A stretch of 64,000 nucleotides of DNA, taken from assembly GCA_029559475.1 (NCBI GenBank), contig JAKQBN010000013.1:25462-89461 (forward strand), in the 5' to 3' direction. Below are positions 1-60,051 of the stretch, one piece after another. Source of the stretch: a bacterium (GTDB lineage: Bacteria > UBA4055). The number at the start of each line of letters is the position of its first letter. The stretch's first letter is position 1. The notes below the pieces were generated by a model that ran no database searches, was not told where the DNA came from, and saw nothing but the letters and a program-made list of their open reading frames with translations. Position numbers and translations under genes: made by a program.

Positions 1-1328
1 TCGATCATTGCATCCGCTACTTTTTTGAAGCCGGCGATGTTGGATCCTTTTACATAGTTTACAAAACCTTTTTTGTCTTTTCCGTATTTAACGCCTGCGT
101 CATGAATATTTTTCATGATAGTTTTAAGCTTGGCATCAACTTCTTCTTTAGACCATGCTAATTTCATAGAGTTCTGGCTCATTTCAAGTCCTGAAGTAGC
201 TACTCCGCCGGCATTAGCTGCTTTACCGGGTGCGAAAGCGATCTGCTCGTGTATGAAATATTCGACCGCGTCTGCAGTACAGCCCATATTAGATGTTTCA
301 ACTACATATTTACATCCGTTTTTAACCAGCTTTTTCGCATCGTCGAGGTTCAGCTCGTTCTGAATTGCGCACGGGAAAGCCATATCGCATTTTACTTCCC
401 ATGGTTTTTTGCCTGCGAAGAATTTTGCGCCCGGGAATTTCTTAGCGTAAGGAGCAACAACGTCGTTATTCGATGCTCTTAACTCAAGCAGGTAATCGAA
501 TTTTGCCTGTGTGTTAACTCCATCCTTGTCGTAAATATACCCGTCAGGTCCGGAGATCGTAACTACCGTACCACCAAGTTCAGTGGCTTTTATTACAGTA
601 CCCCAGGTTACGTTGCCGAAACCTGAACATGCTATTGTTTTACCTTTCATTTTATCTTTTTTGTATTTGAGCATTTCGTCAGCATAGTATACCGATCCGA
701 ATCCTGTTGCTTCGGGTCTGATCAGCGATCCGCCCCAGTTAAGACCTTTACCTGTTAAAACGCCTGTGTTCTCATCTCTTAACCTTTTGTACTGGCCGTA
801 CATGAAACCGATTTCTCTTCCGCCGACACCAATGTCTCCTGCGGGAACGTCAGTTTCCGGTCCGATATATTTCTGAAGTTCTGTCATGAACGAACGGCAG
901 AATCTTAATACTTCATTGTCTGATTTGCCTTTAGGATTGAAATCGGAACCGCCTTTACCTCCGCCCATGGGAAGAGTTGTAAGACTGTTCTTGAACATCT
1001 GCTCGAATCCGAGGAATTTCAGTCCGCCGAGAGTTACGCTCGGATGGAATCTTAAACCGCCTTTATACGGGCCGATAGCGTTGTTGAACTGAACTCTGTA
1101 GCCTTTGTTGACCTGAACCTCGCCCTTATCGTCTTCCCACTCTACTTTGAACATGAACACTCTGTCCGGTTCTGTGATCCTGTCGAGTATTTTGGCTTTC
1201 AGATAACGCGGGTTTTCGTTGACCATGTCAATAACTGATTCGACAACCTCTTTTGCAGCCTGAATGAATTCGGGTTGAGCCGGGTTTTTTCTCTCTAGTT
1301 CCGCCATGAATTCTTTTAGTTTGTACAT
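1..1328 (-). CDS. gdhA: NADP-type glutamate dehydrogenase, 3' end cut by the window edge
   Basis: Absent from the ORF track because it runs off the left edge; I translated it from the minus strand. It starts MYKLKEFMAELERKNPAQPEF and stays open to base 1, about 442 residues, so only a few C-terminal residues are missing against the usual ~447-450. The hexameric GdhA signatures are present: KGGLRFHPSV, the substrate-binding lysine stretch PMGGGKGGSDFNPKG, GPETDVPAGDIGVGGREIG, the nucleotide-binding GFGNVTWGT, and ETSNMGCTADA. The enzyme interconverts 2-oxoglutarate plus ammonia and glutamate in the cytosol; with the fermentation genes nearby it may run in the catabolic direction (inference). 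The ATG at 1328 has AGG about 8 bases upstream and a strong promoter 70-100 bases upstream. It is monocistronic as far as can be seen. Confidence 0.96.
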   Translation of the reverse strand, partial: MYKLKEFMAELERKNPAQPEFIQAAKEVVESVIDMVNENPRYLKAKILDRITEPDRVFMFKVEWEDDKGEVQVNKGYRVQFNNAIGPYKGGLRFHPSVTLGGLKFLGFEQMFKNSLTTLPMGGGKGGSDFNPKGKSDNEVLRFCRSFMTELQKYIGPETDVPAGDIGVGGREIGFMYGQYKRLRDENTGVLTGKGLNWGGSLIRPEATGFGSVYYADEMLKYKKDKMKGKTIACSGFGNVTWGTVIKATELGGTVVTISGPDGYIYDKDGVNTQAKFDYLLELRASNNDVVAPYAKKFPGAKFFAGKKPWEVKCDMAFPCAIQNELNLDDAKKLVKNGCKYVVETSNMGCTADAVEYFIHEQIAFAPGKAANAGGVATSGLEMSQNSMKLAWSKEEVDAKLKTIMKNIHDAGVKYGKDKKGFVNYVKGSNIAGFKKVADAMI

Positions 1329-1710: not shown

Positions 1711-3249
1711 ATGCTTGAAAAAGTAAAGCTTCTAGTTGCGAAAATGAGACATCTTGAAAAGGGCGGCGGAGAAGACAAGATAATCAAAAGGAAAGAAAAA
1801 GGTCTTATGACCGCAAGGGAGAGAATTGAATATCTTCTTGATAAAAATACTTTTAATGAAATTGACCTTTTTGTTGAACATCAGGCCAGGGATTTCGGGC
1901 TGGATAAACAAAAACTCGCAGGAGACGGCGTAGTTACCGGATTCGGCAAGATTGACGGACGTCCCGTCTGCATATTCGCTCAGGATTTTACTGTAGCCGG
2001 CGGTTCGCTTGGAAAAATGCATGCCGCTAAAATTACCAAAGTAATGGATATAGCTTCGAATATGGGTATGCCTATAATCGGAATTAACGATTCAGGAGGT
2101 GCGAGGATCCAGGAAGGCGTTGACTCTCTTGCAGGCTACGGAGAAATATTTTATAGAAATACAATAAACAGCGGCAAGATACCGCAGATATCAGTTATAA
2201 TGGGTCCCTGCGCAGGCGGAGCGGTATACTCTCCTGCCATAACGGATTTCGTTTTCATGGTCGATAAACTTTCTCAGATGTTCATTACAGGACCGAAAGT
2301 GATCGAATCCGTGTTAAATGAAAAGATAGATCCCGAAAGCCTTGGAGGTGCAAGGGTACATAACGAAATTACAGGGAACGCGCACTTTTTCGGAACTTCT
2401 GAAAAACAGACCCTGGAACAGATAAAAGACCTCCTCAGCTATCTTCCTTCATCTTGGGATAAGCCTCTTCCTGAAACCAGGCCGAGACCGCCCAAAAGCA
2501 AAAAAAGCATTCAAAAGATACTTCCTAAAGAAGTTAAGTTCTCGTACGATATGAAGGACATTATTGAACTTCTGGTAGATGATTCGCAGTTCCTTGAAGT
2601 TCAGCAGCTTTTCGCACCGAATATTACAGTAGGGTTCGCGCGCATGGACGGAAAGCCGGTGGGTATTGTGGCCAACAATCCTAAATATCTTGCCGGAGTT
2701 CTTGATGTTGATTCCAGCGATAAAGCAGCGAGATTCGTCAGGTTCTGCGATTCTTTCGGAATTCCGATCATTACCCTTGTCGATCTTCCCGGTTACCTTC
2801 CGGGCATAGATCAGGAGCATTACGGAGTCATCAGACACGGCGCAAAACTTCTTTTCGCTTATTCAGAGGCTACTGTTCCTACCGTTACTATTATTGTAAG
2901 AAAAGCTTACGGCGGTGGATATATCGCAATGGCCTCAAAACATCTGAGGACAGATTTTGTCTACGCATGGCCGACCGCAGAGATAGCCGTAATGGGAGCC
3001 GAGGGTGCCTGCAATATAATCTTCGCAAAAGAGATAGCTGAAGCAAAAAATCCGGATGAGATGAAAAAAGCTAAAGTTGAGGAATATAAGGAAAAATATT
3101 CAAATCCGTACAATGCGGCCTCAAAAGCTTACGTCGATGCCGTAATAACTCCAGATGAAACAAGAGAAAGGATCATCGCATCTCTTGAGCTTGCTAAACA
3201 CAAGGAAAAACTGAAAAAGCTTCACAAGCACGATTCTATTCCGCTTTGA
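1711..3249 (+). CDS. Acyl-CoA (propionyl-/methylmalonyl-CoA) carboxyltransferase subunit
   Basis: A 512-aa protein of the PccB/MmdA family, which moves carboxyl groups between biotin and an acyl-CoA. The N-terminal crotonase-like half has SGGARIQEGVDSLAGYGEIF and the oxyanion region MGPCAGGAVYSPAITDFVFM; the C-terminal half has GYLPGIDQEHYGVIRHGAKL and YGGGYIAMASKHL. Length is normal for a free beta subunit. The ATG at 1711 follows GGAGG. A biotin carrier gene is 25 bases downstream, but neither a biotin carboxylase nor a sodium-pumping membrane beta subunit is in the window. It could therefore belong to a propionyl-CoA carboxylase, a methylmalonyl-CoA decarboxylase or a transcarboxylase; sequence alone does not decide. 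Cytosolic. Confidence 0.92.
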   Translation: MLEKVKLLVAKMRHLEKGGGEDKIIKRKEKGLMTARERIEYLLDKNTFNEIDLFVEHQARDFGLDKQKLAGDGVVTGFGKIDGRPVCIFAQDFTVAGGSLGKMHAAKITKVMDIASNMGMPIIGINDSGGARIQEGVDSLAGYGEIFYRNTINSGKIPQISVIMGPCAGGAVYSPAITDFVFMVDKLSQMFITGPKVIESVLNEKIDPESLGGARVHNEITGNAHFFGTSEKQTLEQIKDLLSYLPSSWDKPLPETRPRPPKSKKSIQKILPKEVKFSYDMKDIIELLVDDSQFLEVQQLFAPNITVGFARMDGKPVGIVANNPKYLAGVLDVDSSDKAARFVRFCDSFGIPIITLVDLPGYLPGIDQEHYGVIRHGAKLLFAYSEATVPTVTIIVRKAYGGGYIAMASKHLRTDFVYAWPTAEIAVMGAEGACNIIFAKEIAEAKNPDEMKKAKVEEYKEKYSNPYNAASKAYVDAVITPDETRERIIASLELAKHKEKLKKLHKHDSIPL

Positions 3250-3289
3250 TCTTTTTCCCATATCAATTAATTAAATGATGAAGGCTGAT

Positions 3290-3727
3290 ATGTCGAACAA
3301 AGATGATAAAGATAATATTGACGATAAAAATAATCCGGCTGCAGAGACTTCCGCTGAAAAAGATGACGGAAAAGATGAAATTCTTGAAGAAGAGCTAATC
3401 TATACTGAGAACGATATTGTGACTCTGGACGGGGAGGAATATCACACGAATTTTACGAACAAATATCTGACCGCAAAAAATTATGTTCCAAGGCTGAAAG
3501 ATGTTGAAATGAGGGCATTTCTCCCGGGTCAGATAATCAAAGTTTACATCAAGAAAAAGAAAAAAGTTAAAGCCTTTGAAAAACTTATATCGTTCGAGGC
3601 AATGAAAATGATAAACGAAATTACTTTGAACGACGATGTAAAGATCGATGAAGTGTTCGTAAAAAAAGGCGACACTGTTGAAAAGAATCAGCTTCTGTTC
3701 AAATATAAAGTGATACCGAAAAAGTAA
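3290..3727 (+). CDS. Biotin carboxyl carrier protein
   Basis: About 145 aa. A highly charged Asp/Glu/Lys N-terminal stretch (residues 1-45) precedes a C-terminal biotinyl/lipoyl domain with the biotin attachment motif EAMKMINEI. The lysine of AMKM is the expected biotinylation site. The track starts at 3275, but AAGG at 3281 is well spaced for the ATG at 3290 (MSNKDDKDN), and nothing resembling a ribosome-binding site precedes 3275. It should carry carboxybiotin for the carboxyltransferase immediately upstream. It is not the FabE-type AccB: the charged N-terminus and genetic partner match the Mmd/Pcc carrier type. Confidence 0.88.
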   Translation: MSNKDDKDNIDDKNNPAAETSAEKDDGKDEILEEELIYTENDIVTLDGEEYHTNFTNKYLTAKNYVPRLKDVEMRAFLPGQIIKVYIKKKKKVKAFEKLISFEAMKMINEITLNDDVKIDEVFVKKGDTVEKNQLLFKYKVIPKK

Positions 3728-3748
3728 TAATTTAATAAACGTACTGTC

Positions 3749-5788
3749 ATGGAATTAATGTCGCCTGCGGGCAACAGTGAATCTTTTTATGCCGCCGTTA
3801 ATGGCGGTGCTGAAGCCGTTTATCTTGGGTTGAACCTTTTTAACGCGCGTAAACCGGCAAGAAATTTTTCATTCGAAGAAATTTCCGGAATAATTTCATT
3901 TGCGCATGCTAAAAATGTCAAAGTCTATATTACTTTAAATACCGACCTAAAATCGTCCGAGCTTGAAAATGCTTCCAAAATTCTATCCTTTCTGAATGAA
4001 ATTAAAGCTGATGCAATTATCGTAAAAGATATTGCTCTTATTTATCTGATAGACAAATATTTCTCTCCTTTCGAATTTCATTTAAGCACGCAGTTCGGAA
4101 TTTCGAACACTGCCGGTATGTTCATGGCGGAAAAGCTTGGAGCGTCAAGGGTGGTTCTCGCCCGTGAACTGAATCTTGATGAAATCAAAGCTCTGAGTGA
4201 GCCTTTTTATCCGAAAACGGAAGTTTTTGTTCAGGGTTCGATGTGCTTTTCATTTTCAGGAAAATGCCTGATGTCGAGCTGGTTCGGGGGGAAATCCGCG
4301 AACAGGGGCAGCTGCCAGGCGCCTTGCAGATTTAGGTTTGAAAAAGAACTCAGCGGAGATTTCAAACCCTATTTTTCAATGAAGGATCTTAATCTTTCTA
4401 ATGATCTGACAGATCTTGAAAAAGCCGGTGTAGCAGCTCTCAAGATTGAAGGACGGCTTAAAAGCGCCGAATGGGTGGGTGAAATAACAAAATATTATAG
4501 AAATCTGCTCGACAATAAAGTTTCTGACGGTTCAGATCCTTCGCGTTTTTCCGGACGGGAGCAGGGAAGCGGATTTTACGGCGGGCTTGAAAACCTTATT
4601 ACATCGAAAAATTCAGGCACTGTTAAAATGGAGATCAGTTCTAAACCTCAGGACCGCCGCGAAAGGCACAACGGTTACGATCTCCGGATAACCGCAGATT
4701 CTGAAATATACATTAATATCCTTACTGATCTCGGGGATGCGGAGTACAGGACCAAAGTTAAGAAACTGGTTAATGAAAAAAGAGGCATAAACCTTTCTGA
4801 GATAGAAACCCGGCTCAGAGACGTTTCTTTCGGTAATCTTTATTTGAACAGAATAAGCCTGAACAACGATATTTTGATAACAAAATCCCAGCTCAATAAT
4901 ATCGTGTCCGATCTTGGAGCTATAATTGCCCCGCTGAGCAGAAAAGAGATCAAATTCTTAAAGAACATCAAGCTGCCTTTCAAACTTGAATACGAGCTGG
5001 CTAATCCTGAATGTAACCCGAAAAATTCCATAGAAGTATGTTTCGGAAACGCAAATATACTCAAGATATTCGCGGATGATATTGATAAAATATCTAATGA
5101 GATCAAGGATTCAGGTATAAAGAAAGTTATAGTTTCTCATGCGCATTTTTCGGACATCGCAAAGATAAAAGAGCTTTCAAACAGGGTCAGGGTCGAAATA
5201 TCCCTCTTCCCCATTCTTTTTGAGAACGATCTCGAAGACTGCAGAAAGATCATAACGGAACTTGAACATACTAATAATATTTCTTACGAGGCGAACGATA
5301 TAGGCCATTTAAGGCTGCTTAAAAATACATCTAAGAAGATCGACTGCGGCCCGGGTCTGTCACCCTACAATTTTATTGCTGTAAAACAGCTTGAAAAGCT
5401 CGGTCTCGATTCCACCCACATTCCGCTTGAAGCCGATATTGAAACGATCGACGGATTAAAAAATTCTTCGCTGCCTTTAAGGATGACTATCTTTTCGAAG
5501 ATCCCGCTGTTCTACACAAGAGCCGCATCTGAAAACTTCAATGAAGGCACATCATTCACTGAACGGGAAAATTATAGATTTTCAGTTCATAAATTTAACG
5601 ACATAAGCATATTCAGCTCAGATGACTATTTTACTATACAAGATATCGACCTTTCATTTTTGAAAGTTCACGAGATCATAATCGATCTCTCCGGTGAAAC
5701 CGACATTCTCAACAAATTTCAGGCACTTAAAAGGGATCCGTCAAAATTCCCCGGTCTGAATTTCAATCTGAAGAGAAGGCTGTTCTGA
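3749..5788 (+). CDS. U32 family protein (prephenate-dependent RNA hydroxylase type)
   Basis: A 679-aa protein starting MELMSPAGNSESFYAAVNGGAEAVY, the U32 N-terminal barrel. The family signature is clear around residues 150-190 (EVFVQGSMCFSFSGKCLMSS, then SCQAPCR) and includes the cysteines thought to bind a cluster. Family members include TrhP/TrhO-pathway tRNA-U34 hydroxylases and RlhA, the 23S rRNA C2501 hydroxylase; older annotations say 'collagenase-like peptidase'. The long C-terminal extension is typical of the RlhA-like longer group. It starts 22 bases after the biotin carrier gene and overlaps the next gene by one base (TGATG), so the two are translationally coupled. Which RNA it modifies cannot be told. 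Confidence 0.85.
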   Translation: MELMSPAGNSESFYAAVNGGAEAVYLGLNLFNARKPARNFSFEEISGIISFAHAKNVKVYITLNTDLKSSELENASKILSFLNEIKADAIIVKDIALIYLIDKYFSPFEFHLSTQFGISNTAGMFMAEKLGASRVVLARELNLDEIKALSEPFYPKTEVFVQGSMCFSFSGKCLMSSWFGGKSANRGSCQAPCRFRFEKELSGDFKPYFSMKDLNLSNDLTDLEKAGVAALKIEGRLKSAEWVGEITKYYRNLLDNKVSDGSDPSRFSGREQGSGFYGGLENLITSKNSGTVKMEISSKPQDRRERHNGYDLRITADSEIYINILTDLGDAEYRTKVKKLVNEKRGINLSEIETRLRDVSFGNLYLNRISLNNDILITKSQLNNIVSDLGAIIAPLSRKEIKFLKNIKLPFKLEYELANPECNPKNSIEVCFGNANILKIFADDIDKISNEIKDSGIKKVIVSHAHFSDIAKIKELSNRVRVEISLFPILFENDLEDCRKIITELEHTNNISYEANDIGHLRLLKNTSKKIDCGPGLSPYNFIAVKQLEKLGLDSTHIPLEADIETIDGLKNSSLPLRMTIFSKIPLFYTRAASENFNEGTSFTERENYRFSVHKFNDISIFSSDDYFTIQDIDLSFLKVHEIIIDLSGETDILNKFQALKRDPSKFPGLNFNLKRRLF

Positions 5789-54543: not shown

Positions 54544-55716
54544 ATGCTGAACTTCACAATGTCGCTGCCTACCGAGGTTTATTTCGGGCGGGATATGATA
54601 AACTCACTGCCTGAATATATTAAAAAACACGGCGGAACACGGGTGCTTCTCGCTTACGGCGGGGGGAGCATCAGGAAAAACGGTATTTACGATAAGATCG
54701 TCAGCCTTCTAAACGAAAACGGAATAGAATTCAAAGAGCTTTCAGGCATAAAACCTAATCCGAGGATCTCAAGCGTCCGCGAAGGCATAAAGATCATCCG
54801 GGATAATAAACTTGATTTTATTCTGGCTGCAGGCGGAGGAAGCGTGATCGACGCATGCAAAGGTATCGCTGCAGGCTGTACTTACGATGGCGATCCCTGG
54901 GATTTTTACTTAAGAAAAACCAGTCTTGAAAAGAAGCCTCTTCCGATCGGGGTTATTCTGACACTTGCAGCTACCGGATCTGAAACGAACTGGGGTACAG
55001 TAATATCAGATGATATCACACAACGAAAACTCCCTTTCAGGCACGAATTCCTGCGTCCGAAATTTGCTGTTCTCGATCCGGTTTACACATACAGCGTCCC
55101 CAAATATCATACTGCGGCCGGAATTACAGACATTATGGCTCATGTATTTGAACAATATTTCAGCCCAACTACTACAGCATATCTGACCGACAGGATGGCT
55201 GAAGCCGTCATGCGTACCGTAATTCACTATGCGCCTAATGTCATGGAAGATCCCGAAGACTATGAGGCTCGTGCCAACATACTTTTCGCCGGCACTTTAG
55301 CGCTTAATCAGCTGCTTTCTTATGGAAAGACAACAGACTGGGCAACTCACATGATCGAGCATGAAGTCAGTGCGATCTATGATATCAGCCACGGCGCAGG
55401 ACTGGCGGTACTTTTCCCGAACTGGATGAAGTATGTTCTTGAAGAGGACAATCTTCAGAAATTTATAGATTATGCGGTAAATGTCTGGGATGTCAACGAA
55501 ACCGGAAAAAGCAGGCTTGATATAGCTCTGGAAGGTATCGAGAGAACCCGCGAATTTTTTGACTTCCTTGATATGCCCTCTTCCCTTTCTGAATTCGGTA
55601 TTGATAATAAACGGCTTGAAGAAATGGCGGAAAAAGCCGTTGTTTTCGGCGAGCTTGGAACATTTAAAAAGCTTGGAAAAAAAGACGTTCTTGAAATTTT
55701 AAAAAATTCACGGTGA
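54544..55716 (+). CDS. Iron-containing alcohol dehydrogenase (butanol dehydrogenase type)
   Basis: 390 aa, close to BdhA/YqhD in length and pattern. The nucleotide region is LLAYGGGSIRKNGIYDKI and LAAGGGSVIDACKGIAAG. ATGSETNWGTVISDD follows. The metal-binding set is ITDIMAHVFEQYF (Asp, His) and MIEHEVSAIYDISHGAGLA (His, His). It reduces short-chain aldehydes with NAD(P)H and would act as an electron sink next to butyrate formation. GAGGTGAT precedes the ATG. It could be co-transcribed with the upstream dacB gene and the TPR gene that follows 3 bases later. Confidence 0.92.
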   Translation: MLNFTMSLPTEVYFGRDMINSLPEYIKKHGGTRVLLAYGGGSIRKNGIYDKIVSLLNENGIEFKELSGIKPNPRISSVREGIKIIRDNKLDFILAAGGGSVIDACKGIAAGCTYDGDPWDFYLRKTSLEKKPLPIGVILTLAATGSETNWGTVISDDITQRKLPFRHEFLRPKFAVLDPVYTYSVPKYHTAAGITDIMAHVFEQYFSPTTTAYLTDRMAEAVMRTVIHYAPNVMEDPEDYEARANILFAGTLALNQLLSYGKTTDWATHMIEHEVSAIYDISHGAGLAVLFPNWMKYVLEEDNLQKFIDYAVNVWDVNETGKSRLDIALEGIERTREFFDFLDMPSSLSEFGIDNKRLEEMAEKAVVFGELGTFKKLGKKDVLEILKNSR

Positions 55717-55719
55717 CTT

Positions 55720-57588
55720 TTGCAGGAACGGGAAGCAGAAAAAAACAAAAATAAAATCAGTAATCCTGCTGAATTTAAAAGACTTCAGACTTTTTCGGTT
55801 GTAATAAACATTTTATCAAGATCTGATATAGAAGGCAGGAACAAATATGTGTATAAAATTACTGTTATAGATAACCTTAATCAGGGCAGATTTATTGGTT
55901 ATAGCTTTGAGAAGAATAAAACAAGCATCGGGATGTATGTTGATTATGTTCTGTCTCAGCTTAAAGACAAGAATCTATTAAGCAAGGATTTTAACATAAG
56001 CAGCAGCATGGGATTTTTTGATATGCGAGATACCGGCTATCAGATTGAGAAGAATCTGCATAAGAAGAAAATTCCTGTAAAATATCAGCCTCTGTCTCAT
56101 AAAGATATTATTAAGAGCATATATAAAGAACTGGTTACCGGCAGTAATGAATTTTCAATTTCAGGTGATCTCGGATCAGGCACTCCGATTTTGCCTCCGG
56201 TTTTTATTGATTCTTTTATTAAAGATATTGACAAGATCGCGAAATTCTCTGATTTCTGGCAAAATTATTCGTATAACGAGCATGACAGAAAACTTCTTAT
56301 CGAAGCATTGAATGAAACTGCAGAAGAAGCTGATAATATTCAAAATGATTTTGATTTTGAAAAAGCATTGAATCTATACCAAAAACTGCATTTGGCGTCT
56401 ATTGAAATTCCGGGCGCGGCAGGACTTACGATAAAATTTATTTTAAAACAGGCAAAAGTTTACTTCCATCTTGAACAATACGAAAAAAGTAAAGATCTTT
56501 TACAATCGTTGATCAAGATGTCAGAAGGCAAAAAAGCTGTTTCGGAGGCAGGCGAAGCTTATTATTATCTCGGAATTATTTCTTCCTACTCGAATGATAA
56601 TAAAAGTGCGGAGAATTATTTTTCTAAAAGCATAAAATTATTCGAAAAGCTAAAAATTCGCGAGAAACATTATATTTACTGGTACTCTATAATAAGAAGA
56701 TACATTTCGATAAACAATTTAAAGAAAGCTCTGATAACTTCGAACAAATGCCTGAGAACAGCCTATAAAAATAATGATACCGGAGAAATGCCCGAGATCT
56801 ACAGCCTGAAAAGCGAAATATATATAAGACAGGAAAAATGTTCCTATGCGCTAGAAAATTTAAATCTGCAGCTTGATTACGCAAGACAGGTAAAAGATAT
56901 TATTTCCGAAGCAAGAGGTATTACTCAGATCTTTTCAATTTCAGCGTATTTATCAGTAATCCCTCAGGAAAAACTCGATGAATATCTTGCCAGGATCAAA
57001 AAATTATCTATAAAAATAAAGAAAAAATCTTATTATTACGATGCGCTCATAGCTATGGGAATCAATTTGAAAAAAAACAAGAACTTCAATGAAGCTGAGA
57101 AATATTTCAATAAAGCCGTTAAAGTTTACTCTGATCAAACAACTGACGCATCATCCCATGTTGTTAACATGATATATCTTGCAAAAATAAAATTGTACTC
57201 TAATAAATACTTGAGCGCTGTAAGGGTATTGAATAAAATGCTTAAGATCTGTGATAGCAAATGCATAGGTTATTATCCTGCTTACATAGAAAACTGTCTC
57301 GGAAGGATCTATTATGAAAGAAAACTGTATCTCAAATCCAATATACATTTAAGAAAAGCTTTGAAATATATTAAAAGAGATAAGAACAGCGATAATTTAC
57401 TAATCGCCAATACATACAAATTTCTGGGATATAACAATCTTGCGCTGGGGTATAAAAATACAGCTTATGATAATCTGAATTTTTCAATAAAAATTTATGA
57501 AAAACTCCTGAGAAAAAAATATGATCAGGAAATAGAAGAAACAACAAAGAAGATTAAAGATATTCTAACAAACCGTGTAAATTCCTAG
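55720..57588 (+). CDS. TPR protein with degenerate integrase-like N-terminal domain
   Basis: 622 aa; the start is TTG with only a weak GGTGA site, so the N-terminus is uncertain. Residues ~10-150 follow the order of an rve/IS481-type transposase core: FKRLQTFSVVINILSRSDI, NKYVYKITVIDNLNQGRFIG, YVDYVLSQLK, ISSSMGFF, KKKIPVKYQPLSHKDIIKSI. The three catalytic positions are lost: 'QTD' reads QTF, 'DNG' reads SMG, and the final Glu is replaced by Ile/Lys. Residues ~185-610 are about ten TPR units (AVSEAGEAYYYLGIISSYSN; NKNFNEAEKYFNKAVKVYSD; ANTYKFLGYNNLALGY). It was probably built from a mobile element and now serves in binding. A small secreted peptide gene lies 169 bases downstream. No signal peptide. 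Confidence 0.65.
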   Translation: MQEREAEKNKNKISNPAEFKRLQTFSVVINILSRSDIEGRNKYVYKITVIDNLNQGRFIGYSFEKNKTSIGMYVDYVLSQLKDKNLLSKDFNISSSMGFFDMRDTGYQIEKNLHKKKIPVKYQPLSHKDIIKSIYKELVTGSNEFSISGDLGSGTPILPPVFIDSFIKDIDKIAKFSDFWQNYSYNEHDRKLLIEALNETAEEADNIQNDFDFEKALNLYQKLHLASIEIPGAAGLTIKFILKQAKVYFHLEQYEKSKDLLQSLIKMSEGKKAVSEAGEAYYYLGIISSYSNDNKSAENYFSKSIKLFEKLKIREKHYIYWYSIIRRYISINNLKKALITSNKCLRTAYKNNDTGEMPEIYSLKSEIYIRQEKCSYALENLNLQLDYARQVKDIISEARGITQIFSISAYLSVIPQEKLDEYLARIKKLSIKIKKKSYYYDALIAMGINLKKNKNFNEAEKYFNKAVKVYSDQTTDASSHVVNMIYLAKIKLYSNKYLSAVRVLNKMLKICDSKCIGYYPAYIENCLGRIYYERKLYLKSNIHLRKALKYIKRDKNSDNLLIANTYKFLGYNNLALGYKNTAYDNLNFSIKIYEKLLRKKYDQEIEETTKKIKDILTNRVNS

Positions 57589-57714
57589 AACCATTTTTTT
57601 TATTCTATATCATATTAAATAAATATTAAATACATAATTTTTATTCTGTTTTTCATACAGCGACGAACATCATAAAAACCGCCTAAAACAGCGGTCTTAT
57701 TGTTGCTTTTTTCC

Positions 57715-57752
57715 AACCTCCGTAGTTTGCCTGCCAAACAACCAGCAGGAGG
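57715..57752 (+). promoter_or_regulatory. Leader hairpin covering the ribosome-binding site of the 59-aa peptide
   Basis: CCTCC (57717-57721) can pair with GGAGG (57748-57752), which is the ribosome-binding site for the ATG at 57758. Inside it GTTTG-CCTGC-CAAAC forms a second stem. The layout could switch translation of the peptide operon. The rest of the 169-base gap is AT-rich, with a weak ACCGC/GCGGT hairpin near 57678-57695. Confidence 0.35.
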
Positions 57753-57757
57753 CTGAA

Positions 57758-57937
57758 ATGAAAAAGTTAAAAAAATTATTGTTTGCCGCAGCTTTGGCTG
57801 CAACACTGTCGTATGGAACCGAAGTACTCGCTGACGAAATTTATCCTGATTGGCTTTGGACAGGCGCAGGCTGGGTTTACATTGGAGTATTAGATGGAGA
57901 TGATCCTGATCCGTTACCACCGCCGATCAAAAAATAA
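57758..57937 (+). CDS. Small secreted peptide, 59 aa (not in the ORF track)
   Basis: Just under the track's length cut. The sequence starts MKKLKKLLFAAALAATLSYG and has a good signal peptide ending VLA, with the likely cleavage before DEIYPDW. The predicted mature peptide is about 34 residues: aromatic in the first half (DWLWTGAGWVYIG) and acidic/proline-rich at the end (DGDDPDPLPPPIKK). AGGAGG lies 6 bases before the ATG. Its TAA overlaps the next gene's ATG (TAATG). I know no family. A signalling peptide, a secreted toxin or a RiPP-like precursor are all conceivable; it is the first gene of a four-gene coupled run. Confidence 0.75.
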   Translation: MKKLKKLLFAAALAATLSYGTEVLADEIYPDWLWTGAGWVYIGVLDGDDPDPLPPPIKK

Positions 57938-58281
57938 TGAAATGGGAGATTCATTCAGTAGTAAGGAGATGGGCAAAAGCGAACTGCACCGGGGCGATCT
58001 ACATTCTCTTCGGTCATCCTGCTGAGATCGAATTACTAAAAGATAAAGAAAAGTTTATCCTGTCAGAATTCGATCTTTGCGGTAATCTCTGCTCAGTTAT
58101 AATTGAAGCCTGTGAAATTTCAACGATAGTTAATTTCGGGAAGGCAAATGAAAAAAGATTGGCGGTAATGTATCTGAATAAAAGAAAAGAAGCAGTGAAA
58201 TCGGTAATAATTAAGTGGCATGACCACAACATTGCACTGCAGACGCGATCTTTTCGCATTATGGAACAACGGAATAAATGA
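57937..58281 (+). CDS. Hypothetical 114-aa protein of the peptide operon
   Basis: Starts MKWEIHSVVRRWAKANCTGA. Not recognised. It looks like a small alpha/beta protein (AIYILFGHPAEIELLKDKEK; LAVMYLNKRKEAVKSVIIKW) with two Cys in DLCGNLCS and a basic C-terminus. No signal peptide or membrane helix. It has no ribosome-binding site of its own and starts on the stop of the 59-aa peptide, so its synthesis depends on translation of that peptide. An overlapping minus-strand frame (58014-58403) is a shadow. It may be a partner or processing factor of the peptide, from position only. Confidence 0.6.
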   Translation: MKWEIHSVVRRWAKANCTGAIYILFGHPAEIELLKDKEKFILSEFDLCGNLCSVIIEACEISTIVNFGKANEKRLAVMYLNKRKEAVKSVIIKWHDHNIALQTRSFRIMEQRNK

Positions 58282-58445
58282 TGAATGGAAAGAATAGAAT
58301 AACAGGAACAAAAGAACCTACCGAGGGAACACCGGGTATCTCCCCTGCAGTAAAGAAAACGGTGTTCCTTCACCATTGTAATGAACATTGCTCTGGTGTG
58401 CAAATATTAAACAAGTACAAAATAACTGACCAGAGGAGTAAATGA
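58278..58445 (+). CDS. Small Cys/His peptide, 55 aa (not in the ORF track)
   Basis: The sequence starts MMNGKNRITGTKEPTEGTPG and contains the motif FLHHCNEHCSGVQI; with no signal peptide it should stay in the cytosol unless otherwise exported. HHC...HC could hold a metal or a disulfide. Both junctions are 4-base ATGA overlaps with the identical local sequence AAATGATGAA: one with the 114-aa gene, one with the sialidase-like gene. The coupled frame and overlap on both sides are the main evidence that it is real. A 9-bp inverted repeat (GGAACACCG 58326-58334 / CGGTGTTCC 58360-58368) lies inside the coding sequence. Confidence 0.55.
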   Translation: MMNGKNRITGTKEPTEGTPGISPAVKKTVFLHHCNEHCSGVQILNKYKITDQRSK

Positions 58446-59893
58446 TGAAACATATAATAGCCACAATATTATTAATCACAACTCTTCTTACAGCCCAGTT
58501 AGGCAACTGGAGCCCACCTGTGCAGCTGTCAATCGACGGTGTTCATCCATACAATATGATCGGTATACCTGCAATAACGGTTGACAACAACGGAACTATT
58601 CATGCTTTCTGGGTAAAAAGCATTGAAGAAGATGGCGGTGCTTTGCCTTGGGAATGGTATTCGCAGATCGAATACCGAAGATCAGCTGACGGCGGTAAAA
58701 CATGGGATGCAACTGAGAACCTGACACCAGATTATTTTGAACATAGAATTAATTACATGAAAGCTGTATGTGATTCAAAGAACAATGTACATCTTGTTTA
58801 TATGAGGGGCAGCGAAGGTTACGAAATTTTATATAAAAAGTTCGACGGGACTACATGGTCAGCACCGGAATTAATCGGATACGGTTCGTCATATTTAAGG
58901 ATGAACATTGACAGCGTTGACAGAATATATGCCACTTGGATGATAGGAAGAGAAGCATATTTTGCATATTACGATAACGGCGTTTGGTCTGATTACAAGC
59001 AAATTGGATCGGGAGAATACGGATTGGATGATCTTAAATTTGATCAGAATAACTTACTTTATGCAGTAGGTTCATGTTGGACAGATTTGACTCCATATTT
59101 GTTTATTTATGATAAGATGGTAGAAAATTGGATAAAGATCGAAGAGATGCCTAATGACACATTGGAATTTGGTGCTGCCAATGTTGTATCAAGAGATAAT
59201 GATGAGCTATTTATTAATATAAGTTATAGAACATATGCAAATAGTAAGGATTTTCATATGACTATGGAAATGAATACGGGAGAGTATTCATTTCCATATG
59301 AATACGGAGATAAGAATAATCCTGAAAGGGAAATGTATATGGATAAATATAATTATATACATCTTTTTGAGAAGCATTACTATGATTCTGATTATGTTAC
59401 TATGGGATTAATACACAATATTGGGAAGAATGAAATTTGGGAAACAACTGCAATTGACTCATCAAGTTATCATACATATTCGGAACCAAATGTAGCATTT
59501 GATAAGGTCAATAATAAGTTTTTTCTCCTTTACCAAAAATATGAAATAGATAATATGATTATGTACATAAATTTTCGTTCAAAGCAGAATACTACAGGAA
59601 TAGAAGATAATGATAGTCATTCAGTTGTAGACTTTAGATTAAATCAGAACTATCCAAATCCCTTTAACAATCAGACAAATATTTCATATGGATTATCTCA
59701 AACTTGTGAGGTTGAGCTATCAGTTTTTAATCCTAAAGGTCAAATCGTAGCTGTGCTTGTAAACTCAAAACAGAGTAAAGGTAACCATTCGATTCAATTC
59801 AATGCGGATAACTTGAACAGTGGAGTTTACTATTACCAATTAAAGACCGATGGAATTTTAAGGTCACTAAAGCGAATGGTTTATCTAAAATAA
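58442..59893 (+). CDS. T9SS-exported sialidase-like (BNR/Asp-box) protein
   Basis: 483 aa. Signal peptide MMKHIIATILLITTLLTAQLG. The body resembles a six-bladed sialidase-like propeller with an Asp box SADGGKTWDATENLT and repeated 'W..p..i..' units (TTWSAPELIGYGSSYLRMNI; YDNGVWSDYKQIGSGEYG). No clear catalytic Arg triad can be assigned, so enzymatic activity is uncertain. The T9SS module is LNQNYPNPFNNQTNISYGL ... LNSGVYYYQLKT ... KRMVYLK. It is the last gene of the coupled peptide run (ATGA overlap), with AGAGGAG before the twin ATGs. It is more AT-rich in its 3' two thirds than its neighbours. Confidence 0.82.
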   Translation: MMKHIIATILLITTLLTAQLGNWSPPVQLSIDGVHPYNMIGIPAITVDNNGTIHAFWVKSIEEDGGALPWEWYSQIEYRRSADGGKTWDATENLTPDYFEHRINYMKAVCDSKNNVHLVYMRGSEGYEILYKKFDGTTWSAPELIGYGSSYLRMNIDSVDRIYATWMIGREAYFAYYDNGVWSDYKQIGSGEYGLDDLKFDQNNLLYAVGSCWTDLTPYLFIYDKMVENWIKIEEMPNDTLEFGAANVVSRDNDELFINISYRTYANSKDFHMTMEMNTGEYSFPYEYGDKNNPEREMYMDKYNYIHLFEKHYYDSDYVTMGLIHNIGKNEIWETTAIDSSSYHTYSEPNVAFDKVNNKFFLLYQKYEIDNMIMYINFRSKQNTTGIEDNDSHSVVDFRLNQNYPNPFNNQTNISYGLSQTCEVELSVFNPKGQIVAVLVNSKQSKGNHSIQFNADNLNSGVYYYQLKTDGILRSLKRMVYLK

Positions 59894-59898
59894 AAAAT

Positions 59899-59988
59899 GG
59901 AGGTGCATATAAGGATACTATCGAGTAATACCGTGAAGTTTTGCCTGCAAGCCTGTTTCACGGATTAATGGATTCTGCCTGCACCTCC
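59899..59988 (+). promoter_or_regulatory. Large nested hairpin before the C13-like gene
   Basis: A perfect 9-bp outer stem GGAGGTGCA (59899-59907) / TGCACCTCC (59980-59988) encloses a 7-bp inner stem CCGTGAA (59931-59937) / TTCACGG (59957-59963). There is no U-run, so it is not a typical terminator. It could be a structured leader RNA or a mobile palindromic repeat. The loop contains TTTGCCTGC, also present in the leader of the 59-aa peptide. Confidence 0.45.
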
Positions 59989-60051
59989 CTATTAAATATA
60001 TGGAATATCAGGCGGACAGCACAACAGAAAAGTAAAAGTGAGGAAAAAAAA

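Follow-up and report, generated by a model that had tools for sequence, protein, structure and literature searches.

Does a gene for a tetratricopeptide repeat (TPR) protein that stands directly in front of a gene for a small exported peptide mark a peptide-sensing system outside the Gram-positive bacteria? The question is raised by a locus in the window, a 64,000-nucleotide stretch of contig JAKQBN010000013.1 (assembly GCA_029559475.1) from a member of the phylum Candidatus Delongbacteria. The locus encodes a 622-aa TPR protein, a 59-aa peptide and, further downstream, a propeller protein exported by the type IX secretion system (T9SS). A preliminary description had likened this arrangement to the RRNPP systems. 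We compared the locus with its relatives in 13 Delongbacteria genomes, which represent one family and seven genera, and conclude that the pairing of a TPR regulator with an exported peptide is real and conserved in Delongbacteria. The family is apparently undescribed, as no such system was found among the titles of open-access papers naming Delongbacteria and the literature on related systems gave no match. To our knowledge, the phylum has no cultured representative.

A conserved pair of regulator and exported peptide

A search with a single peptide, followed by one with a 17-member profile, yielded 17 clear peptide loci in 10 of the 13 genomes. A sample of 386 genomes, of which 373 belong to other phyla, contained no convincing member outside Delongbacteria; two matches from the other phyla (E 5e-4 and 1e-3) covered only model positions 1–34 inside frames of more than 400 aa and were rejected. 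The peptides are 53–61 aa long and are encoded on the same strand as the TPR gene, 28–216 bp away. All 17 carry an export signal, judged by eye, that consists of MK[KR], a hydrophobic stretch and an AxA-like site. The mature part has an acidic start, the motif Y/P-x-W-x-W-x-G-x-x-W-[VIL]-Y-x-G and a proline-rich tail, and the spacing W-x-W-x-x-G-x-W-x-Y looks like that of a β-hairpin of the tryptophan-zipper type. The core is conserved, not diversified, among the paralogues of one genome. The peptide frame is under purifying selection, the non-synonymous rate (dN) lying far below the synonymous rate (dS) in three pairs, with dN/dS of approximately 0.10 for L043–L046 (0.034/0.32), 0.16 for L050–L064 (0.24/1.49) and 0.11 for L060–L063 (0.25/2.38), the last two being rough values with a large dS. 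We discounted weak NCBIfam matches (Phr_nterm, BRANT, NprX, LIC10301) because each concerns only one member and those to Phr_nterm and LIC10301 fall in the N-terminal signal-peptide part; the Phr_nterm match, to the signal peptide of the window member only, was also below the cut-off.

A tree of 37 regulators places every peptide-bearing protein in a single clade with a support of 100/100. Within this clade 16 regulators are followed by a peptide gene, four are not (L044, L048, L130 and L131) and seven are cut by a contig end, while none of the nine checkable regulators among the ten outside the clade (one is cut) has a peptide. The signal-peptide ORF (open reading frame) of 50–70 aa that the preliminary description expected behind TPR homologues is therefore present at 16 of 20 testable loci, all of one clade, or at 18 of 22 when two contig-split loci are joined. 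These counts treat L042 as peptide-bearing, its peptide being broken by an assembly gap (NN) with the tail GIEPLPPPPPVKI legible. The peptides L064 and L065 lie at contig edges and probably belong to the regulators L052 and L129, and L045 and L046 are halves of one gene that overlap by 42 identical residues. Since the C-terminal end of a TPR gene also closely precedes L064 and L065, no peptide was found apart from a TPR gene: all 17 are directly downstream of one, and homologues in unrelated contexts, which the preliminary description had considered, were not encountered. The peptide-less regulators sit on longer branches than their sisters (0.38 versus 0.17 for L044; 0.48 for L048, 1.03 for L130 and 1.86 for L131).

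Regulators derived from IS481-type transposases

The regulators are domesticated IS481-type transposases with a dead RNase H domain. Full-length members combine a transposase-type helix-turn-helix (HTH; HTH_28/HTH_32) with a domain in RNase H order and approximately 400 aa of TPR. In the AlphaFold2 model of L093 (predicted local distance difference test, pLDDT, 82.9), the strands and helices after the HTH follow the RNase H order, and the model of the window protein (pLDDT 82.7) keeps an RNase H remnant and the TPR array. Taken alone, the N-terminal module retrieves IS481-like transposases of approximately 300–390 aa from other phyla. One transposase, L141, matches NF033577 (1.7e-36), and the catalytic triad D184, D257 and E300 in its numbering is replaced or deleted in all aligned TPR proteins. 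The degenerate nucleic-acid-enzyme domain of the preliminary description is thus an RNase H-like DDE domain from which all three catalytic residues have gone. With IS481-family transposases (NF033577) the regulators share the N-terminal HTH_28 and HTH_32 and the RNase H fold, and their module profile also matches IS481-like transposases such as L141 and L145. In contrast to that family, which is defined by an intact DDE triad, they have lost the triad, are fused to approximately 400 aa of TPR and are no longer transposases.

No fusion of TPR to the transposase module was found outside Delongbacteria in the genome sample. Many of the best-conserved regulator columns lie in the HTH, which is lost in the window protein and those most closely related to it (L041, L043/L045 and L042); L044 begins at a contig edge, where the state of the HTH is not readable. 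Two in-clade regulators, L130 and L131, have lost the RNase H domain and are both without peptide, a coincidence that concerns small numbers. Foldseek against the PDB returned generic TPR superhelices (LGN, OGT), which are not diagnostic. A phage or plasmid origin was set aside, as the TPR protein has no relative in IMG/VR or among plasmids and the peptide none among the phage records searched.

Two neighbourhoods of these regulators were recorded besides. In two genera that have no peptide, dprA and the gene of a related HTH-TPR regulator overlap by 7–8 bases (L133, 2470–5926; L134, 2748–6220). At L050/L093 and L052/L095, a 408-aa ORF, which its N-terminus suggests to be a MacB/FtsX-like permease, lies directly upstream of the TPR gene and overlaps it in L095.

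Locus layout, promoter and downstream genes

The TPR, peptide and propeller genes of the window, the last with its T9SS tail, were confirmed as previously described (Table 1). The genes do not all overlap by 1–4 bases, as had been claimed: the TPR and peptide genes are separated by a gap that contains a promoter. As for the two small proteins placed between peptide and propeller, only the first has homologues in related loci, and the second is probably not a gene or is private to the window. The TAATG overlap of the peptide and 114-aa genes is not conserved either; among relatives, the distance from the peptide stop to the start of the next gene is approximately 23 to 70 bp and, in one case, 270 bp.

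Table 1. Features of the regulator–peptide locus in window coordinates
Feature	Position	Strand	Remarks
Iron-dependent alcohol dehydrogenase	end at 55716	+	upstream neighbour of the TPR ORF
TPR regulator-family protein, 622 aa	55720–57588	+	TTG start 3 bp past the dehydrogenase stop; Pfam TPR_12, 1.5e-17
Domains of the 622-aa protein	RNase H-like remnant ~25–180; TPR superhelix ~187–621		HTH lost
Intergenic region, 169 bp	57589–57757	+	peptide promoter and degenerate A-rich box
Exported peptide, 59 aa	57758–57937	+	signal peptide to ~residue 25, cleavage site between VLA and DE by eye
Mature part of the peptide, ~34 aa			DEIYPDWLWTGAGWVYIGVLDGDDPDPLPPPIKK
114-aa cytosolic protein, unknown fold	57937–58281	+	homologues in related loci
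55-aa ORF	58278–58445	+	no homologue in related loci
Secreted BNR-propeller protein	58442–59893	+	T9SS C-terminal sorting domain

The promoter ahead of the peptide gene (TTG-N20-TAGTTTG, approximately 57700–57730) follows the pattern TTG-N20-TANN(T)TTG, which we take to be the known promoter form of Bacteroidota. The pattern occurs in all six loci of the window subclade and in L047, that is, in 7 of 18 intergenic regions, against a mean of 0.146 and a maximum of 2 in 1000 shuffles, a figure that overstates the surprise because the pattern was composed after viewing these sequences. Just upstream, Gibbs sampling found an A-rich box of 22 bp with an information content of 14.06 (shuffles: mean 11.75, maximum 12.30), once the last 18 bases of each region had been removed; otherwise it mostly returned C-rich stretches and stretches resembling ribosome-binding sites. 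For 9 of the 12 other loci, a leave-one-out analysis placed the box at rank 1–6 of its locus, and the window copy (57680–57701) is degenerate and weak. The box fits a binding site of the regulator, for which it is a candidate.

Behind the peptide, the genes vary and include the 114-aa family, DUF3606, a 58-aa zinc-ribbon-like protein, an 85-aa family, response regulators, an FMN-binding/ferredoxin protein, LanC-like and YadA-like proteins and T9SS propellers. Homologues of the 114-aa protein occur in seven other loci of the window/L047 subclade, behind the peptide or, where it has been lost, behind the TPR gene, and propellers of the window type recur downstream of the TPR genes L046, L063 and L131 (34–49% identity). 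As this cargo is exchanged while TPR protein and peptide stay, the conserved unit is the regulator plus the peptide. The window's own genome encodes a paralogous HTH-TPR regulator without RNase H domain (L131, contig C44), which lies 78 bp upstream of a propeller gene whose product is 36% identical to that of the window, with no peptide in between (2604–5767).

Several RNA structures accompany these genes. Behind the propeller gene of the window, ahead of the next T9SS gene, lies a strong hairpin (59899–59989; minimum free energy −34.2, z −4.23), formed by GGAGGUGCA...UGCACCUCC with a nested CCGUGAAG...UUUCACGG stem; an Rfam search gave nothing above the gathering score, this hairpin included. 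Hairpins without a T-run follow the peptide stop directly, before the next gene, in L047, L053 (for example GGCTGTGGAAACACAGCC), L054, L055, L060 and L063, and could set different expression levels of peptide and cargo. A structure behind the peptide that would sequester the ribosome-binding site was considered and rejected, since it is not consistent among loci.

Possible roles of the peptide and comparison with known systems

The domain architecture, the loss of catalysis, the pairing, the selection on the peptide and the promoter are established. From these we infer that the regulator controls the peptide promoter, that its TPR array binds the peptide and that feedback results, and we propose the following hypothetical sequence of events: (i) an IS481-type transposase would have turned into a one-component DNA-binding regulator by losing its catalytic triad and acquiring a TPR superhelix; (ii) in one clade of these regulators, a peptide gene with a promoter of its own would have been added directly behind the regulator gene, encoding approximately 34 Sec-exported residues with a Trp/Tyr core and a proline-rich tail, and cargo that differs between loci, often exported proteins, would come after it; (iii) the regulator would control the promoter ahead of the peptide, and its TPR groove would sense the peptide, either as the precursor before export or as mature peptide that has re-entered the cell; (iv) peptide level or export status would thereby set the expression of the peptide and of the surface-protein operon. 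Having lost its HTH, the window copy would not bind DNA itself but would work, like Rap proteins, by contacting other proteins. That a domesticated-transposase regulator controls its adjacent exported peptide and senses it is the interpretation we favour, as a plausible but tentative one, given the promoter and box directly ahead of the peptide gene and a cargo that varies while TPR protein and peptide stay.

Several observations weigh against it. Four regulators of the clade have no peptide, and two of them (L044 and L048) keep the TPR gene together with the 114-aa gene. The paralogous peptides have one common core, which is unexpected for separate signals, and the window copy of the box ranks only 209th among approximately 128,000 positions of the 64-kb window. 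Distances between TPR proteins and peptides are correlated (Mantel r 0.44, p 1e-4), but the mature part (r 0.30, p 0.004) is no more strongly correlated than the signal peptide (r 0.40), so the correlation may only reflect linkage; the co-divergence is what linked inheritance alone would give. The oligopeptide-binding protein family SBP_bac_5 (OppA) is absent from all ten peptide-bearing genomes and present only in G004 and G006, both without peptide, and the importers PTR2, OPT and SbmA are absent from all 13. At a completeness of 79–97%, chance absence of an importer from ten genomes is unlikely; importers of other kinds are possible.

A serious rival is that the peptide is output only, an envelope or extracellular peptide with a structural, antimicrobial, or metal- or sugar-binding role, and simply the first target of an adjacent regulator that senses something else. 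The peptide gene's own promoter, a Trp/Tyr/Pro core conserved across paralogues as expected of a functional fold, the lack of a known importer family in the peptide-bearing genomes and the TPR genes kept without peptide in L044 and L048 all make this a real possibility, though one we would not put first. It also predicts that peptides sometimes occur apart from regulators, which was never seen, and it sits less easily with cargo that changes freely while the peptide does not. We consider it improbable that the peptide is instead a translation-arrest leader, in which a Trp/Gly motif behind the signal peptide and a proline run at the extreme C-terminus would stall the ribosome until export pulls the chain, and so control the next gene. 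The layout resembles that of SecM and the RAPP arrest peptides (PMC7897499, PMC10951233), and the family shares with them a short signal-peptide ORF, a conserved motif (8–20 residues before PP(P)), PP(P) 2–6 codons before the stop and other genes nearby downstream. Unlike SecM, MifM and VemP, however, the family has no conserved downstream gene; at none of the examined loci does a Sec/YidC component follow, and the neighbour that stays constant is the regulator upstream. There is no RAPP/RGPP motif, L061 has only short proline runs (IPPVKK), and RNA structure at the junction is neither stable in the window (z +1.17) nor consistent over the ribosome-binding site elsewhere.

The preliminary description had also named a toxin/immunity set and a precursor of a ribosomally synthesised and post-translationally modified peptide as alternatives. 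LanC-like genes downstream of the peptide in L050 (2911–3648, joined to an AraC-type HTH_18) and L058 (2090–3334), and small cytosolic proteins behind the peptide in many loci, would suit them; the LanC genes are, however, hundreds of base pairs away and absent from other loci, no partner gene or modification enzyme is constant, and the peptides are not lanthipeptides, since they contain no Cys apart from one residue in L061. Of all the explanations, we regard these as the least probable. True RRNPP-type quorum sensing, in which the peptide would be exported, cut to a short pheromone, re-imported and bound by the TPR protein, is likewise very unlikely. The profile does match many TPR proteins, Rap and NprR structures included, and a TPR gene with a Sec-signal peptide of 53–61 aa close by on the same strand is what such systems would show, but the long conserved mature core, the two membranes to be crossed and the absence of a known oligopeptide importer speak against it.

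What the preliminary description had right about RRNPP is thus the gene layout: with the peptide behind the TPR gene at 16 of 20 loci and under purifying selection, the analogy is fair, whereas membership and the route of export and re-import found no support. When adjacency is taken as a small ORF of 10–100 aa at −60 to 400 bp from the TPR receptor gene, those 16 loci qualify with gaps of 28–216 bp, and all 17 propeptides carry an export signal by eye. The receptors depart from the published signature of 250–500 aa (PMC10075063), being 583–746 aa long, and begin with HTH_28/HTH_32 and an RNase H-like domain instead of an HTH_3-type domain or the Rap three-helix bundle. Large-scale RRNPP searches covered Bacillota and viruses only (PMC10075063).

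Paired TPR regulators and exported peptides have so far been described for Bacillota and their phages. If the regulator of our preferred reading does sense its peptide, this would be convergent evolution of peptide sensing outside Gram-positives. A more far-reaching reading, in which peptide signalling evolved in a diderm phylum separately from RRNPP and domesticated transposases, as HTH-(dead RNase H)-TPR receptors, switch surface-protein operons on sensing the Trp/Pro-rich peptide of their own locus before its export or after its return, is possible, although we consider it less likely than not. If the peptide is not sensed, the loci still represent a clear domestication of a transposase into paralogous bacterial regulators with a dedicated exported peptide. 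As the regulators, the peptides and a candidate promoter are defined, the proposal is directly testable in Escherichia coli. Compared with Rap-Phr, NprR-NprX, PlcR-PapR and AimR-AimP, the Delongbacteria system differs in its host, which is a diderm outside Bacillota with no OppA-type importer found, in a receptor that owes its HTH and middle domain to an IS481-type transposase, and in a mature peptide of approximately 34 aa with a core common to all paralogues. It shares with them a TPR protein in the cytosol, which may or may not carry a DNA-binding HTH, an adjacent small gene with a Sec signal, paralogous pairs within one genome and orphan receptors: an equivalent-looking pairing built from different parts, namely an IS481 transposase, a TPR array and an unrelated peptide.

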